Source of the DNA: Ferrovibrio sp.
GTDB lineage: Bacteria > Pseudomonadota > Alphaproteobacteria > Ferrovibrionales > Ferrovibrionaceae
Assembly (NCBI RefSeq): GCF_025869515.1
Contig: NZ_JAOZVR010000052.1
Span: 109,016-173,015 of the forward strand
Length of the DNA stretch: 64,000 nt
Direction of reading: 5' to 3'
Translations under genes and position numbers: made by a program
Shown: positions 108 through 60,202 of the stretch, piece after piece
How positions within the stretch are numbered: the stretch's first letter is position 1
Layout: each line of letters starts with the position of its first letter
Notes under the pieces: generated by a model
What the model saw: the letters and a program-made list of their open reading frames with translations, nothing else
Database searches by the model: none
What the model was told of the DNA's origin: nothing

Positions 108-671
108 TCAGAAGGTAGGCGGTGTGCAGGCGCTGATCAGCTCGCAGGGTTCGCGGCCGATATTGCGAAACCGGTGCGGCTGGTCGCTTTCGAAATAATA
201 GGCATCGCCCGGACCCAGCACGCGCACCTGGTCCGCCACCGTCACTTCCATGCGGCCGCGGATCACCACGCCGCCCTCCTCGCCTTCATGCTTCAGCATG
301 ACCCGGCCGGTATCGGCGCCGGGCGCATAGCGCTCCACCAGAATCTGCAGCGCGCGGCCGCGCAGATCGGCGCCGACCTGGCGATAGCTGATCTTGCCCT
401 TGCCGACCTCGGCCAGCTCGTCGGCTTTATAAAAGGCCTTGCGCGGCGCCGGCATGTCTTCCATGGCGAAAAATTCCGCCAGGCTCATCGGCAGGCCGTC
501 GAGTACGCGTTTCAGTGCGCCGACCGACGGGTTCATCTGGTTGGCCTCGATCAGCGAAATGGTGGCATTGGTGACGCCGGCTCGGCGCGCCAGCTCGCGC
601 TGCGACAGCTTGGCGGCCAGCCGCACCGCCTTCAGCCGGCTGCCGATATCGATGTCAGAGGCTTTTTCCAT
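108..671 (-). CDS. XRE-family regulator with C-terminal cupin domain (PuuR-like)
   Basis: A small-molecule-responsive DNA-binding protein. Residues about 10-65 form an XRE helix-turn-helix (LSQRELARRAGVTNATISLI). Residues about 110-187 form a single cupin barrel with the GDAYYFESDQPHRF signature that binds metal or ligand. Length and architecture match PuuR-type regulators of polyamine and amino-acid catabolism. I prefer the ATG at 671, which has GGGG upstream; a GTG three codons earlier (680) is also open. The gene is divergent from a class III omega-aminotransferase, so it probably controls that gene and itself. The ligand is unknown, and a polyamine or amino acid is only an inference from the family. 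Confidence 0.85.
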   Translation of the reverse strand: MEKASDIDIGSRLKAVRLAAKLSQRELARRAGVTNATISLIEANQMNPSVGALKRVLDGLPMSLAEFFAMEDMPAPRKAFYKADELAEVGKGKISYRQVGADLRGRALQILVERYAPGADTGRVMLKHEGEEGGVVIRGRMEVTVADQVRVLGPGDAYYFESDQPHRFRNIGREPCELISACTPPTF

Positions 672-5274: not shown

Positions 5275-6993
5275 ATGGCAATTCCGATTATCGCGATTGC
5301 GGCCACCCTGGCGCCCCTGCTGGTGGCCCTGGCCTGTCTGGTGGCCTGGCGCAAGCTCGATGGCGGACGGCACCTGCTGTTCTGGGCGCTGGGCCATGCC
5401 TGTCTGGCGCCGCCCTTTGCCATCGCCGGCTTCCTCGACTGGCAGGGCGGGCATCCCGTCTTCATGGTTGCCGCCGGGCTGGGCACCGCCGCCATCGTCT
5501 TCATTACCGCCGGCATGCGCAGCCTGACCGGTCGCCAGGACAGCATGCCCGCCGCGCTGCTGGCGGCGCTTGCGATCGGCGGCTTTACCCTGCTGCTGCA
5601 GCAGGTCAGCAGCACCGCCTATTACCCGACTGCGCTGGTGGTTTCAGCCGCCCTGCTGCTTTATGCCGGCATCCTGCTCCTGACGCATCGCCGTTCGGTT
5701 TTCTATATCGCTGCCGGCATCATTCTGCTGGTACGCAGCGGGCTGTCGATCTTCTATGCCACGCAGCTGATGGCGCAGACCGCATCGCTGAACGAATCCT
5801 TCGCATTGTCGATCCTGATCAACCTGACCACCGGCCTGTGCCTGATCATGATCGAGTTCGACAATGCGCGGCAGCGCGAGGTCGAAGCACGGCGCACCGA
5901 ACATGAAACGACGCAGTTCCTGGAAGCGCTGCTGAATGCCATGCCGGCCACCATGAGCTACAAGGATACCGACCTGCGCTACCAGATGATGAACCGGCGC
6001 ATGCACAGCCTGCGCCAGGCCTATGACCAGAATTACATGGGCCGCAGCTGGAGCGAGATCGTCGGCCCCGATGTTGCCGCCGTGATCGAGAATATCGACC
6101 GCCAGGTTCTGGCGACCGGCGAGACGGCGCATATGGAACAGGCCTGGACCGGGCCGGATGGCCGCCCCATCGTGATCTGGGCCCAGAAGGTGCCGCTGCG
6201 CGACACGGATGGCCGTATCCTCGGCATCATCACCTGCGGCATCGACATCACGCGCCTGAAAGAAACCGAGGCCCAGCTGATCGAGCAGCGCGAGGCGGCC
6301 GAAAGCGCCAGCCGGACCAAGACCACCTTCCTGTCCAACATGAGCCATGAATTGCGCACGCCGCTGAATGCCATCATCGGCTTCGCCGAAATGATGAAGG
6401 GCGGCTATGCCGGGCCGCTGAGCGACCGCGCCCAGGGGTATGCCGCCAATATCCAGGAATCGGGCGAACACCTGCTGCGACTGGTGAACGACATCCTCGA
6501 CCTGTCGCGGCTGGAAAGCGGCCGGCTCGACATGAATATCGAGGCCTGCAGCTTCGACCAGATCGCCAGCAGCGCGCTGGCCATGGTGCAGCCGCAGGCC
6601 CGCCAGGCCGAGGTGGCGCTGCAGTCCGGTCCGACCGGCCTGACGCTGAATGCCGACGCCCGCGCCCTGACGCAGATCCTGATCAACCTGCTGGGCAATG
6701 CGGTGAAGTTCAGCCGCCCGGGCGACCGCGTCACTCTGGAGGCCGGGCAGAGCAACGGCGTGGTGCGCATCCGCGTGATCGATACCGGCATCGGCATGAG
6801 CGCGGCGGAAAGCCGCGCCGTGATCCAGCCGCTGCACCTGCATCGCGCCGACGTCTACCGCACCCGCGCCAACAGTGGCGCCGGCCTGGGCCTGTCGATC
6901 TGCCGCAGCCTGGTGGAGCTGCATGGCGGCCGGCTCGACATCCGCAGCGAGCCCGGCCAGGGCACCACGGTGGAAGTGCTGCTGCCGGCCTGA
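5275..6993 (+). CDS. Membrane PAS-sensor histidine kinase (orphan)
   Basis: A sensor kinase of 572 aa. Residues 1-195 carry about six or seven hydrophobic helices with no large periplasmic loop. A PAS domain follows (about 225-335, ending in GIITCGIDITRLKETE), then a coiled linker and a HisKA dimerisation domain with the phosphoacceptor His at residue 358 (NMSHELRTPLNAIIGF). The HATPase domain has the N box (LINLLGNAVKFS), G1 (DTGIGM) and G2 (GAGLGLSICRSLVELHGG). The segment between G1 and G2 is divergent (AVIQPLHLHRADVYRT) with no clear F box. No response regulator is adjacent; the nearest downstream genes are tctCBA, which in other bacteria are paired with the TctDE two-component system. 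The link to tctCBA is only positional. Confidence 0.9.
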   Translation: MAIPIIAIAATLAPLLVALACLVAWRKLDGGRHLLFWALGHACLAPPFAIAGFLDWQGGHPVFMVAAGLGTAAIVFITAGMRSLTGRQDSMPAALLAALAIGGFTLLLQQVSSTAYYPTALVVSAALLLYAGILLLTHRRSVFYIAAGIILLVRSGLSIFYATQLMAQTASLNESFALSILINLTTGLCLIMIEFDNARQREVEARRTEHETTQFLEALLNAMPATMSYKDTDLRYQMMNRRMHSLRQAYDQNYMGRSWSEIVGPDVAAVIENIDRQVLATGETAHMEQAWTGPDGRPIVIWAQKVPLRDTDGRILGIITCGIDITRLKETEAQLIEQREAAESASRTKTTFLSNMSHELRTPLNAIIGFAEMMKGGYAGPLSDRAQGYAANIQESGEHLLRLVNDILDLSRLESGRLDMNIEACSFDQIASSALAMVQPQARQAEVALQSGPTGLTLNADARALTQILINLLGNAVKFSRPGDRVTLEAGQSNGVVRIRVIDTGIGMSAAESRAVIQPLHLHRADVYRTRANSGAGLGLSICRSLVELHGGRLDIRSEPGQGTTVEVLLPA

Positions 6994-54101: not shown

Positions 54102-54551
54102 TCAGTACCGCTTGTATTCGAGATATTTACCTGTCATCACGATTTTGACGCGGTCGCCCTTCGGATCGGGCAGGCGTTCCATCGTCATGTTGAAATCGAT
54201 CGCCGACATGATGCCGTCGCCGAATTCCTCGTGAATCAGCTCCTTCCAGGTGGTGCCGTAAACCTGCACCAGTTCGTAGAAACGATAGATGGTCGGATCG
54301 GTCGGCGGGCCCGGCGGCAGTGAACCGCGATAGGGAATCTCGCAGAGCAGTTTCTCTTCCATCTTGCTGAGGCCGAGCAGCTTGGCGGCCTTGGCGGCCT
54401 GCGCCGGCTCCAGCTTCATCTGGCCCAGCAGGGCCGCGGTGATCAGGATATGTGATTCCCTGGCATCGATCTTCTTGGCGATGGCCTTCCAGGTCAGGCC
54501 TTTCGCACGTTTCACGTCGCAGATCTTTTCGGTAACGGCTTCGCGCTTCAC
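54102..54551 (-). CDS. cynS: Cyanate hydratase (cyanase)
   Basis: Converts cyanate and bicarbonate to carbamate, which yields ammonia and CO2. The 149-aa protein has the N-terminal helical, HTH-like region (LTWKAIAKKIDARESHILIT) and the C-terminal catalytic part with Arg and Glu in TIYRFYELVQVYGTTWK and Ser in GDGIMSAIDFNM, the three residues of the decameric active site. It starts at GTG 54551, with AGGAGAGA upstream, 32 bases after the ATPase gene. It is the last gene of the operon headed by the substrate-binding protein. Confidence 0.97.
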   Translation of the reverse strand: MKREAVTEKICDVKRAKGLTWKAIAKKIDARESHILITAALLGQMKLEPAQAAKAAKLLGLSKMEEKLLCEIPYRGSLPPGPPTDPTIYRFYELVQVYGTTWKELIHEEFGDGIMSAIDFNMTMERLPDPKGDRVKIVMTGKYLEYKRY

Positions 54552-54583: not shown

Positions 54584-55435
54584 TTATTCGGCGGCCGCAT
54601 TCACGCCGGCGGCGCGAACATGCGGCGGTTTCCTGGCATCCCAGCCCGGCGGCGGGATGAAGTTCTTCGAGCGCCGCACCAGGAAATCGAGCAGGTGGTT
54701 GCGCATCGGATAATAGTCGGCGAGCTGGTGCAGGGTTTCGCGCGTGCGGGTCTTGGGCAGGGTGTTGACCAGAATTTCGGCAATGCGGGCACCCGGCCCG
54801 TTGGTCATCAGCACAATGCGGTCGGCCAGCAGGATCGCCTCATCGACATCATGAGTGATCATGAAGACGGTCAGGCTGGTCGTGGCGCGGATGCGCAGCA
54901 CCTCATCCTGCAATGTTCCGCGCGTGAGGGCATCGAGAGCCGAAAATGGTTCGTCCATCAGCAGGGTTTTCGGCTCGATGCTGAGCGCGCGGGCAATGCC
55001 GACACGCTGCTTCATGCCGCCCGAAAGCTGTGAGGGCTTTTTGTCCTCGGCGCCGGTCAGGTTGACCATGGCGATATATTTGCGCGCCTGTTCGGCCGCC
55101 TTGGCCTTGCTCCATTTCGGCCAGCGCGACTGCACCGCGAACATCACGTTGTCGAGCACGCTCATCCACGGCATCAGGGCATGACCCTGGAACACCACGG
55201 CACGGTCCAGGCTGGGACCTTCGATCGCCGTGCCGTCAAAAATGATACCGCCCGCGCTGGCATGATCCAGCCCGGCCATGATGTTGAGCACGGTGGTCTT
55301 GCCGCAGCCGGAATGACCGATGACGCAGACGAACTCGCCCTTGTCCATGCTGAACCACAGGTCGTCGAACACCGCCGTATCGTTGCCGGGGAACTGGCGT
55401 TTGAGCGCTTCGACAGAAATGAAATGCTGGCTCAT
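54584..55435 (-). CDS. ABC transporter ATP-binding protein, nitrate/cyanate type
   Basis: The ATPase of a nitrate/sulfonate/cyanate-type importer (NrtD/CynD group), 283 aa. Walker A is [14 protein letters not shown], the signature [16 protein letters not shown], Walker [15 protein letters not shown] and the switch histidine is in [38 protein letters not shown] fits the subfamily. A C-terminal segment of about 60 residues is added past the core. It lies 4 bases after the permease gene. Linkage to cynS points to cyanate as substrate. Confidence 0.93.
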
Positions 55436-55439
55436 GCAA

Positions 55440-56279
55440 CTACTCGGTAAAGGTGACGAGGCGCGTGAGGAAACCGAGCAGCTGGTCGAGCAGCATGCCG
55501 ATCACGCCGATGAACAGGATGGCGTTGATCACATTGGCGATCGACAGGTTGTTCCACTCGTTCCAGACGAAGTAGCCGATGCCGGTGCCGCCGACGAGCA
55601 TCTCGGCCGCCACGATCACCAGCCAGGCAATCGAGATCGAGATGCGCATGCCGGTGAGGATGGTGGGAGCCGCCGCCGGCAGGATGACCCGGAAAATCTT
55701 GCGGAAGGTGCCGACCTCCAGTGTGCGCGCCACGTTAAGCCACTCTTTCCGCACATTCGCTACGGCAAAGGCCGTGTTGGTCAGCATCGGCCAGACCGAG
55801 CAGATGAAGATGACGAAGATCGATGAGATCGCGCTGTCCTTGATCGTGTAGAGCGCCAGCGGCATCCACGCCAATGGAGAAACCGGCCGCATCACCTGAA
55901 TGAACGGATCGAGCGCCTGGCGGAACAGCGGCGACAGGCCGATCAGGAAACCGAGCGGCACCGCGACGATCACCGCCAGGCCGAAGCCGAGCGCGACGCG
56001 GCCGATGGAGTAGCCGAGCTGGATGCCGATGCCCTGATCGTTCGGCCCCTTGATATAGAAGGGATCGGCGAGATGGCCCCAGAGAATCTTCGCCACATCG
56101 AGCGGGCCGGGCATTGCCGATTTGCCCTGCGTCGCCGTCAGGCCCATCAGCTTGGCGTATTCCGGATCCATCGCCTGGGTCTGGCCGACGCCCGAAGTGG
56201 CGATCTGCCAGATCGCCAGCAGGGCCACCAGCAGCGCCGCCGAAACCACGGCGGCGCGCAGGCGGAATGACATCTTCAT
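55440..56279 (-). CDS. ABC transporter permease, nitrate/cyanate type
   Basis: A membrane subunit of the NrtB/CynB group, 279 aa with six predicted helices. The first (about 10-28) is followed by a periplasmic loop containing [19 protein letters not shown]. The cytoplasmic EAA-like loop that docks to the ATPase is around [20 protein letters not shown], with [20 protein letters not shown] following. It lies 21 bases after the substrate-binding protein gene. Confidence 0.93.
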
Positions 56280-56300: not shown

Positions 56301-57692
56301 TTAGACGCGCTTGATCTTGAACGAGTTGATGTACTCGGCCGGCTTGCTGGGATCGAACGGCTTGCCCATCACCGAGAAGGTCTTGTACGGGCTGCTCGGC
56401 GGGGTGAGGCCGACATCCTGCATCAGCTTCGCGGTATCGGTGGCGAGGAAGACCTGCTCTGCCACCTTCTGATAGTCGATATCGCCCTTGAGCTGGCCCC
56501 AGCGCTTCATCTGCGTGAGGATCCAGATGCCGAAGCTCTGCCAGGGGAAGGGCGCGAAATCGATGCGGTCGGGCACCTTCTTCACATTGCCCAGGCCGTC
56601 GGCGTAAGTGCCGGTCAAAACCTGTTCAACCACCGTCACCGGCTGGTTCAGATAGGCGGCCGGCGCGATGGCTTCGGCGATCTGCTTGCGGTTCTCGGCC
56701 TTGGTGGCATAGGCCGTCGCCTCGATGATGGCGCGCAGCAGCGCACGATAGGTATTCGGCGCCGTGGTGACAAATTCCTGGCTGGCGGCGAAGGCGCAGC
56801 AGGGATGGCCGTCCCAGATTTCCTTGGTCAGCAGGTGGATGAACCCGACGCCGTCATAGACCGCGCGCTGGTTGACCGGATCGGGCGCCAGGAAGCCGTC
56901 GATATTGTCGGCACGCAGGTTGGCCACCATTTCCGGCGGCGGCACGGCACGGATCTGCACATCGGTATCCGGATCGATACCGTGTTCGGCCAGGTAATAG
57001 CGCAGCAGGTAGTTGTGCATGGAATAGTCGAAGGGCACCGCGAGCTTGAAGCCCTTCCACGACTTCGGGTCGCGCTTGTCCTTGTGTTTCATCGCCAGCG
57101 TGATGGCCTGGCCGTTGATGTTTTCCACCGCCGGCATGGTGTAGGGAATCGGGTTCGAACCGGTGCCGGTGGTGATCGCCAGCGGCATCGGCGACAGCAT
57201 ATGGGCAGCGTCGTATTCCTTGTTGATGGTCTTGTCGCGGATCACCGCCCAGCCGGCGGTCTTGATCACATCGACATTCAGGCCGTGCTTGGAATAGAAG
57301 CCCATCGGATGCGCCATGATGATCGGCGTGGCGCAGGTGATGGCGATGAAGCCGACCTTGAGGTCTTTCTTTTCCAGCGGGCCCTTGTCCTGCGCGAAAA
57401 CCTCGCGCGCGGTCGCCAGCGGGAAGAACTGCTCGATGGCGGCCAGCAGGGTGCCGGCGCCGATGCTGTGCAGCACGCGTCGACGCGTCATGTCATCGGG
57501 GATCAGGGCGCGCACCACGGCCTGGTCGACCGCATTGGTCAGGCGCTTTTCCTCGTCGCCGGCGACCTGCAGCTGCTGGTCACGCTGCAGCAGCGCCAGC
57601 TCGGCATTGTGATGGGCGAGAGACTGATGGGCGCCGCAGGGACAGGCGGACAGATCGGTTTTGGAATCGAACGGATTCTTGAACAACGACAT
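56301..57692 (-). CDS. ABC transporter substrate-binding protein, nitrate/cyanate type, with long pre-Tat leader
   Basis: A 463-aa receptor of the NrtA/CynA group. The Tat motif TRRRVLHSIGAG comes only at residue 69, followed by a hydrophobic stretch and REVFAQ near residue 100. The first 68 residues are cytoplasmic-type sequence with SACPCGAHQSLAHHN, two Cys and three His that could bind metal. The mature domain shows KVGFIAITCATPIIMAHPMG, EYDAAHMLSPMPLAITTGTG, then PVNQRAVYDGVGFIHLLTKE. It is the first gene of the operon, transcribed from the sigma-54 promoter. Confidence 0.92.
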   Translation of the reverse strand: MSLFKNPFDSKTDLSACPCGAHQSLAHHNAELALLQRDQQLQVAGDEEKRLTNAVDQAVVRALIPDDMTRRRVLHSIGAGTLLAAIEQFFPLATAREVFAQDKGPLEKKDLKVGFIAITCATPIIMAHPMGFYSKHGLNVDVIKTAGWAVIRDKTINKEYDAAHMLSPMPLAITTGTGSNPIPYTMPAVENINGQAITLAMKHKDKRDPKSWKGFKLAVPFDYSMHNYLLRYYLAEHGIDPDTDVQIRAVPPPEMVANLRADNIDGFLAPDPVNQRAVYDGVGFIHLLTKEIWDGHPCCAFAASQEFVTTAPNTYRALLRAIIEATAYATKAENRKQIAEAIAPAAYLNQPVTVVEQVLTGTYADGLGNVKKVPDRIDFAPFPWQSFGIWILTQMKRWGQLKGDIDYQKVAEQVFLATDTAKLMQDVGLTPPSSPYKTFSVMGKPFDPSKPAEYINSFKIKRV

Positions 57693-57732
57693 CGTCGGTA
57701 TCTCCCCTGAATGGCTGCCTGGGATTCAGGGG

Positions 57733-57748
57733 AGCAAGGAGTATGCCA
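57733..57748 (-). promoter_or_regulatory. Sigma-54 (-24/-12) promoter of the cyanate operon
   Basis: On the minus strand TGGCATACTCCTTGCT fits the -24/-12 consensus: GG and GC dinucleotides separated by 10 bases. The expected transcription start is near 57722, about 30 bases ahead of the substrate-binding protein ATG. The divergent gene encodes a sigma-54 activator. Confidence 0.88.
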
Positions 57749-57828
57749 GCCCCCGCCGATTTCCCGATGGCGGCGCAGCCCCTCGTAAATCCGGCATAAA
57801 TGGCTGGCGGTGACGTCAAGGCCGATAT

Positions 57829-57881
57829 TACGAAAATTCGTAGTATACGAGACTTCGTAGTATGAATTACAATTCTTCGTA
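57829..57881. promoter_or_regulatory. Three activator-binding repeats, TACGA-type/TTCGTA
   Basis: Three 14-base elements: 57829-57842 (TACGAAAATTCGTA, a perfect inverted repeat), 57846-57859 (TACGAGACTTCGTA) and 57868-57881 (TACAATTCTTCGTA, left half degenerate). Starts are 17 and 22 bases apart. They stand about 80-135 bases upstream of the sigma-54 -12 element, the usual place of an enhancer. The third abuts the activator's ATG, so binding there should also repress its own gene. Confidence 0.8.
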
Positions 57882-59795
<1,914 letters not shown>

Positions 59796-59956: not shown

Positions 59957-60202
59957 ATGGCGACCCATCTGAAGCTCGACAAAAAAGGCAGGCTCGACCT
60001 GCCGCAGGACATGCGGGACAGCCACCATTGGCGGGCCGGCATGGAATTCAGCATCGAGGACCGGCCCGAAGGCCTGCTGCTGCGACCGCTCGGAAATCCG
60101 GCAAAAACCGTGAAAGGCCAGGCGCTCACGCATGGGAACAGCGGCTGCGACCGCGCCCTGGCTTCGGCCATGCGCGACCGCTACGCCAAGCTGGGCCACT
60201 AA
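59957..60202 (+). CDS. AbrB/SpoVT-like DNA-binding protein, orphan
   Basis: An 81-aa protein whose first 50 residues match the swapped-hairpin AbrB/MazE fold: HLKLDKKGRLDLPQDMRD, then WRAGMEFSIEDRPEGLLLRP. The short tail has RALASAMRDRYAKLGH. VapB-type antitoxins share this layout, with a PIN toxin gene following; here the next 159 bases (60203-60361) hold no toxin, so it is either an orphan antitoxin or a small transcription regulator. GAGG lies 5 bases before the ATG. Confidence 0.75.
   Translation: MATHLKLDKKGRLDLPQDMRDSHHWRAGMEFSIEDRPEGLLLRPLGNPAKTVKGQALTHGNSGCDRALASAMRDRYAKLGH

Follow-up and report, generated by a model that had tools for sequence, protein, structure and literature searches.

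The cyn locus described here most probably works as a CynF-type switch, in which the divergently encoded activator CynF would act through three dyad-symmetric sites on the sigma-54 promoter of the cynABDS genes, a reading to which we give a probability of about 85%. We are less sure of two of its extensions, namely that the three sites scaffold a hexamer of the activator and that the activator limits its own expression. The locus lies in a stretch of 64,000 nucleotides from Ferrovibrio sp., which we call the window, in a genome of 4.9 Mb. Predicted control by sigma-54 and by enhancer sites of the neighbouring PAS activator is strongly supported by the comparison of related loci. A switch of this type is already known from Pseudomonas, and the addition made here is the conserved three-site layout, with which a regulator characterised in one Pseudomonas strain becomes a family whose operator can be read in Alpha- and Gammaproteobacteria alike.

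The cyn locus and its divergent region

The cynABDS genes and the activator gene are read away from each other (Table 1). The start of cynA is at 57692 on the minus strand and that of the activator gene at 57882 on the plus strand, the latter being the first ATG, GTG or TTG past the in-frame stop, and the gap between them (57693-57881) is 189 bases long. Within the genus, CynA and CynF of the window are 91% and 75% identical to those of another Ferrovibrio locus (L035), and 91% and 76% identical to those of the genome G295. A small open reading frame downstream of cynF (59957-60202) gave no Pfam or NCBIfam match, and by eye its start is AbrB-like.

Table 1. Features of the cyn locus, with nucleotide positions in the window and residue numbers for the protein domains
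Feature	Position	Strand	Reading and basis
cynS	54102-54551	minus	cyanase; PF02560, and NF002773 and TIGR00673, each above its cut-off
cynD	54584-55435	minus	ATPase; Pfam; slightly below the TIGR01184 nitrate ATPase cut-off (288.6 vs 291.8)
cynB	55440-56279	minus	permease; Pfam; above the cut-off of TIGR01183, nitrate permease, a related transporter family
cynA	56301-57692	minus	NMT1_2 substrate-binding protein (Pfam)
-24/-12 element TGGCATACTCCTTGCT	57733-57748	minus	predicted sigma-54 promoter reading into cynABDS; exact match
dyad 1 TACGAAAATTCGTA	57829-57842		putative CynF operator; centred some 113 bp before the nominal start site of cynA
dyad 2 TACGAGACTTCGTA	57846-57859		putative CynF operator; start 17 bp from that of dyad 1
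dyad 3 TACAATTCTTCGTA	57868-57881		putative CynF operator; 22 bp from dyad 2; its last base directly precedes the cynF ATG
cynF-like activator gene	57882-59795	plus	Pfam, structure model and alignment of 37 sequences
activator domains	PAS1 11-118; helix; PAS2 164-270; coiled coil; AAA+ with GAFTGA 311-553; helical C-terminal domain read as HTH 579-624		Pfam and model

A 189-base divergent region with a -24/-12 promoter reading into the cyn operon had been predicted from the letters of the window, and this is borne out, as TGGCATACTCCTTGCT matches TGGCAYRN4TTGCW with 0 mismatches and is the sole exact match within the window. Taken alone, a single element of this kind is weak evidence, since with 1 mismatch allowed the window holds 2 matches, against 2.38 in shuffles. 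The window's own genome carries one copy of rpoN. The TACGA and TTCGTA elements that the same prediction had placed at enhancer distance are likewise present, and they are better read as three 14-bp dyads of the form TACGA-N4-TCGTA than as half sites; these putative sites do stand at enhancer distance from the -24/-12 promoter (about 113 bp for the centre of dyad 1).

A perfect 11-bp inverted repeat (CTCCCCTGAAT / ATTCAGGGGAG) at 57702-57734 surrounds the nominal cynA start site, and one of its arms contains a likely ribosome-binding sequence. It was seen in 0 of 2000 mononucleotide shuffles. We considered it as a conserved leader and set this idea aside: it is partly kept in the closest relative (L125) and, by eye, not evident in 18 other relatives. 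The repeat is perhaps without a role.

The putative three-dyad operator is kept in two bacterial classes

Relatives of the locus were collected by a scan of genome contigs with the activator only, and the best 80 of at least 579 were used. The comparison set, which we call the best-80 set, comprises 97 loci: 78 of these 80 (L043 and L065, which have no divergent gap, were left out), 18 from an unselected set of cynS loci, and the window. Removal of relatives with a CynF at least 80% identical left 50 dereplicated loci. The triplet was scored by comparing three dyads with TACGAN4TCGTA over 30 points, keeping the best of start spacings of 16-18 and 20-23 bp, with a threshold of 23.

The window's triplet scores 29/30. 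In the best-80 set the threshold is reached at 85 of the 97 loci and in 39 of the 50 dereplicated ones, in both Alpha- and Gammaproteobacteria, and by none of 2000 dinucleotide shuffles of the 50 dereplicated gaps; 11 of the 50 fall under it. The first dyad spacing is 17 in the best-scoring triplet of 44 of these 50, low scorers included. With the window left out, a strict 17/21-22 triplet stands in the gap of 79 of the 96 loci of the best-80 set, and none was found outside the gap in 1.21 Mb of the same 96 loci, on both strands. A consensus, TACGAAATTTCGTA, is common to all the dyads, which carry 15.9, 12.9 and 13.6 bits (dyads 1, 2 and 3; n=40), values that lean towards the consensus because the 40 were picked by a score of at least 22.

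The promoter element is kept along with the dyads. An element scoring at least 10/12 was found on the divergent-gene side of the triplet at 94 of the 97 loci of the best-80 set and in 48 of the 50 dereplicated ones, window included, and one scoring at least 11/12 at 86 of 97 and 41 of 50, a score that was reached in 10 of 2000 dinucleotide shuffles of the 50 dereplicated gaps. The original prediction had staked itself on the conservation of the repeats and of the GG-N10-GC element in alignments of relatives' intergenic regions, and conservation is what these alignments gave.

Distance and helical phase

The distance between operator and promoter was followed in the 39 of the 50 dereplicated loci of the best-80 set that have a triplet of at least 22 and a -24/-12 element of at least 10, the other 11 being left out by these score limits. 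From the centre of dyad 1 to the nominal start site it is 88.5-92.5 bp in 13 loci, 99.5-104.5 bp in 24, 113.5 bp in one and 78.5 bp in one. The distances thus gather round two values, 91 and 102 bp, which differ by roughly a helical turn. At a period of 11 bp, R is 0.80 (n=39), and none of 5000 sets with a jitter of at most 5.5 bp reached the best R, a null that does not remove relatedness. The best-fitting period, 11.8 bp, exceeds the 10.5 bp of B-DNA; its value is therefore only loosely determined, and it depends on two main clusters. Off-cluster values also occur among the 11 representatives left out, such as 110.5 in L089, whose triplet scores 20.

A quick tree of 49 CynF proteins, from a short search that left 16 of its 46 forks open, requires at least 8 changes of spacing class. 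On this tree the second dyad gap has altered at least 10 times, and the gene divergent from cynF has switched between cynA and cynS at least 4 times. Four genomes of the window's genus, its own among them, divide evenly, with a distance of 101.5-103.5 in two and of 113.5-114.5 in the others. The distance classes fit a DNA loop that must keep its face, and these natural changes of spacing could readily serve to test looping phase and, outside NorR, the templating of hexamer assembly by the operator.

The triplet follows CynF and marks cyn loci

The relatives were found by the activator alone, and cyn genes are present in the fetched stretch of 79 of the best 80 of at least 579; the 80th, L043, starts within the gene, at the edge of its contig. 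In 78 of these 80 the activator gene has cynA or cynS as its divergent neighbour. A cynS gene was found in 69 of them, 8 of which have no cynA match and carry cynS divergent from cynF (L068, L071, L073, L074, L076, L086, L105 and L110). The short contig of L065 has cynA tail to tail with cynF and downstream of it, which is a rearrangement or an assembly error.

The unselected set starts from cyanase. A cynS gene is present in 44 of the 385 genomes searched in the window's class, and the 43 neighbourhoods other than the window were compared with it. In the search of alphaproteobacterial genomes that the original prediction had proposed, for the same activator beside cynS, CynF was present at 19 of the 44 cynS loci, window included; its absence elsewhere is perhaps overstated, because several neighbourhoods are cut by contig ends. 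The triplet (17/21-23, score at least 23) was found at 14 of the 19 cynS loci with CynF and at 0 of the 25 without it (Fisher p = 1e-7, uncorrected for kinship). The five CynF loci below the threshold are L129, L132, L133, L150 and L161; L150 (genome G162) matches the looser genome-wide triplet pattern with 2 mismatches, and the CynF match of L161 starts only at residue 112. This genome-wide pattern, with up to 3 mismatches, was found in 11 of the 385 genomes (10 at 17/22 and 1 at 17/21), each time 3.5-3.9 kb from that genome's cynS match, and the reversed-pattern control gave 0 matches in the 385. The triplet marks CynF rather than cyanase as such. It marked cyn loci only in the genomes searched, so that CynF targets can be annotated from DNA alone, and this points to a one-locus regulon.

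A wider CynF regulon was considered and rejected, the only other exact TACGAN3TTCGTA in the window's genome (C102:39552) lying inside an open reading frame without evident cyanate link. With up to 2 mismatches, the paired dyad occurs in this genome at the cyn gap and at C42:70393 (two mismatches), a number of matches equal to that of the reversed control. CynF probably governs one locus, because beyond the cyn gap the paired dyad is no commoner than in the control. The genome of P. chengduensis has the paired dyad at the cyn gap only, and its reversed control gave 4 matches. A cynF mutation is reported to affect nitrate reductase in Pseudomonas strain CECT5344 (PMC6627978); within the limit of 2 mismatches, no second paired operator in P. 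chengduensis accompanies this effect, since the pair occurs only at its cyn gap.

Relation to known regulators

The original prediction, which took cyanase operons to be controlled by CynR, NtcA or NtrC, had seen a different logic in a dedicated PAS-type activator of such an operon. This did not hold up, as a CynF divergent from cynABDS has already been published for P. pseudoalcaligenes (oleovorans) CECT5344 (PMC6627978). In the accessible text of that paper, cynF is 268 bp from cynA and a putative sigma-54 site precedes cynA; cynABDS forms one transcript, present with cyanate and absent with ammonium; in a cynF mutant, cyanase activity was not detected with any of the nitrogen sources tried; and CynF is essential for the cyanate-induced, ammonium-repressed expression of cynABDS. 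The window resembles this locus in its divergent sigma-54 activator, in the putative sigma-54 promoter before cynA and in its gene order, and differs in its gap, which has 189 bp against 268. The need for CynF, the induction by cyanate and the repression by ammonium come from this Pseudomonas relative rather than from the window's organism, to which they may apply by analogy.

We took P. chengduensis as a near relative of CECT5344, the gap being 268 bp in both according to the accessible text. At its locus (L107), cynA starts at an ATG at 5741 (read from the sequence; the gene call has a GTG at 5750) and cynF at an ATG at 6010, with 268 bp between them. Its triplet scores 24/30 (17/23), against 29/30 (17/22) in the window. 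The 58% identity of the window's CynF to that of L107, together with a gap as in CECT5344, is indirect evidence that it is homologous to the characterised Pseudomonas protein. No published CynF operator was found in the literature searched, which lay mostly outside subscription journals and Figure S1 of PMC6627978. In a survey of sigma-54 regulons, cyanate lyase is enriched in alpha- and gammaproteobacteria (PMC12316311, accessible text).

By analogy, NorR is the nearest mechanistic parallel to the three-site CynF operator. In E. coli, NorR depends on three enhancer sites between norR and norVW, and these act as the scaffold for an oligomer in the shape of a ring (PMC2941729). NorR shares with the window's CynF an AAA+ activator module, three enhancer sites (predicted in the window) and an N-terminal sensing domain of its own. 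It differs in perceiving nitric oxide through a GAF iron centre, where CynF has PAS domains; as to the sites, the comparison covers their number. The window's activator gave no Pfam match to GAF and scores 370.4 bits against a NorR cut-off of 476. CynR of E. coli is, like CynF, a dedicated local activator of cyanase genes, but it is of LysR type and its system has the major facilitator transporter CynX and the carbonic anhydrase CynT (PMC6627978).

Other readings of the divergent region

The AAA+ activator NtrC serves nitrogen genes at -24/-12 promoters. General nitrogen control, under which NtrC would drive the sigma-54 promoter and the neighbouring PAS protein would be secondary, is a reading to be weighed, and we regard it as improbable. 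Four places in the window's genome match the AAA+ part of the activator, itself included, and one of them is an NtrC above its curated cut-off; ammonium does repress the Pseudomonas operon (PMC6627978). The cynABDS genes are also found at 13 of the 25 cynS loci without CynF (L128, L136, L137, L138, L141, L142, L145, L149, L151, L157, L159, L160 and L165), and within 300 bp upstream of cynA all 13 have a -24/-12-like element that scores 10/12 or more, a limit set without shuffle control. Since all of them keep this element, another activator, plausibly NtrC, may serve these loci, and sigma-54 seems to be general for cynABDS in the window's class while the activator changes. However, NtrC control of the 13 is a guess, because L149 alone has an NtrC-like site reached by no more than 1% of its own shuffles.

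For the window itself, NtrC sites were tried as an alternative enhancer and rejected, the best match in the gap being no better than shuffles: the best site in the 300 bp upstream of cynA scores 7/10, which 68% of shuffles reach. The gap holds instead the triplet specific to CynF. This activator is distinct from NtrC, as it has no receiver domain and scores 326 bits against an ntrC cut-off of 558.6, with a separate NtrC above the cut-off in the genome. The loss of detectable cyanase activity in the Pseudomonas mutant (PMC6627978) also argues against a secondary role for CynF.

A still less probable reading takes the dyads as operators of another DNA-binding protein, or as sites that only repress cynF, rather than as a cynABDS enhancer. 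Indeed, the binding of CynF to the dyads is itself deduced from the sequence, and the dyads abut the cynF start in the window. In 26 of the 40 dereplicated loci of the best-80 set with a triplet of at least 22, a possible in-frame start (ATG or GTG) falls within dyad 3 or no more than 21 nt past its end. Against this, the triplet follows CynF rather than cynS in the unselected set, it is also present where cynS is the divergent gene (L073, L074 and L110, for example), and its distances to the -24/-12 element stay clustered, for which a site that only represses cynF would have no need. A chance origin of the repeats in a short, AT-richer gap can be practically dismissed: at 2 mismatches single dyads do reach 3.43 matches in shuffles of the window, against 9 in the window itself, of which the three dyads, each counted on both strands, make up 6, but the alignments of the relatives' gaps refute this reading, with a fixed-spacing triplet kept across two classes, reached by no shuffle and found nowhere else in the same loci.

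The activator and the proposed mechanism

The reading that we prefer, in which CynF would act through the dyads on the sigma-54 promoter, depends on what kind of protein CynF is. The activator has 637 aa, and Pfam finds in it two PAS stretches, Sigma54_activat and AAA_lid_14, with no receiver domain among the matches. Its translation contains KGAFTGA, as befits an AAA+ sigma-54 interaction domain, and the divergent PAS-PAS sigma-54 activator without receiver domain that had been predicted is confirmed by these matches. No HTH exceeded the Pfam threshold. The C-terminal end matches the FhlA profile and the ZraR structure and is helical in the model, which suggests a Fis-like HTH. The placement of the domains is uncertain, because the structure model has a mean pLDDT of 79.1 and a pTM of 0.42.

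In PAS2, His200, His204 and Cys218 are invariant in an alignment of 37 sequences. PAS1 is more variable, and Asn39 and Leu61 alone are invariant among 23 sequences. PAS2 as the sensor domain is our guess. Its His/Cys motif is no proof of cyanate sensing, because it also occurs, as a strict pattern, in a PAS protein other than CynF at L179, one of 26 other loci. Compared with solved structures, PAS2 matches the PAS domains of many sensors at weak E-values, with no ligand indicated, and a Foldseek search with the activator gave only AAA+ activators among the top 50 matches listed, with no clue to a ligand.

The observed anatomy, conservation, cyn-locus specificity and distance clustering suggest the following mechanism. 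Dimers of CynF would occupy the three TACGA-N4-TCGTA dyads through the Fis-like HTH, and three dimers held at the fixed spacings of 17 and 21-23 bp may seed one AAA+ hexamer, a step that we infer because the three-site plan resembles that of NorR. One of the PAS domains, most likely PAS2, would register cyanate or a linked signal. The hexamer would then contact the sigma-54 polymerase at the -24/-12 element by a DNA loop of conserved helical phase, and open the cynABDS promoter.

Since dyad 3 reaches up to the start codon of cynF, bound CynF probably also limits the transcription of this gene. The original prediction had proposed self-silencing through the third site, which fits the geometry and is plausible. 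In several relatives too, dyad 3 stops immediately before the ATG, and the cynF promoter is likely to be covered by the triplet, because the start codon lies inside dyad 3 or close after it. How far dyad 3 stands from the start codon differs from lineage to lineage, and in several gammaproteobacteria the start is far beyond dyad 3. A consensus scan of 57650-57950 gave no sigma-70 promoter for cynF.

We would advance only tentatively, and as rather unlikely in its entirety, the fullest form of this scheme, in which CynF would be a DNA-templated machine: an operator of three dyads in a fixed layout, whose helical phase to the promoter is kept through at least 8 changes of spacing class, would assemble the hexamer, PAS2 would sense cyanate directly with His200, His204 and Cys218, and the same complex would shut off cynF. 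If this were true, a single 53-bp element would govern the response as well as the dose of activator.

A TGGCA...TTG element that points toward cynF was observed to begin 2-4 bases past dyad 3 at five gammaproteobacterial CynF loci (L097, L103, L107, L108 and L110); a -35 box and a degenerate sigma-54 site are two possible readings of it.
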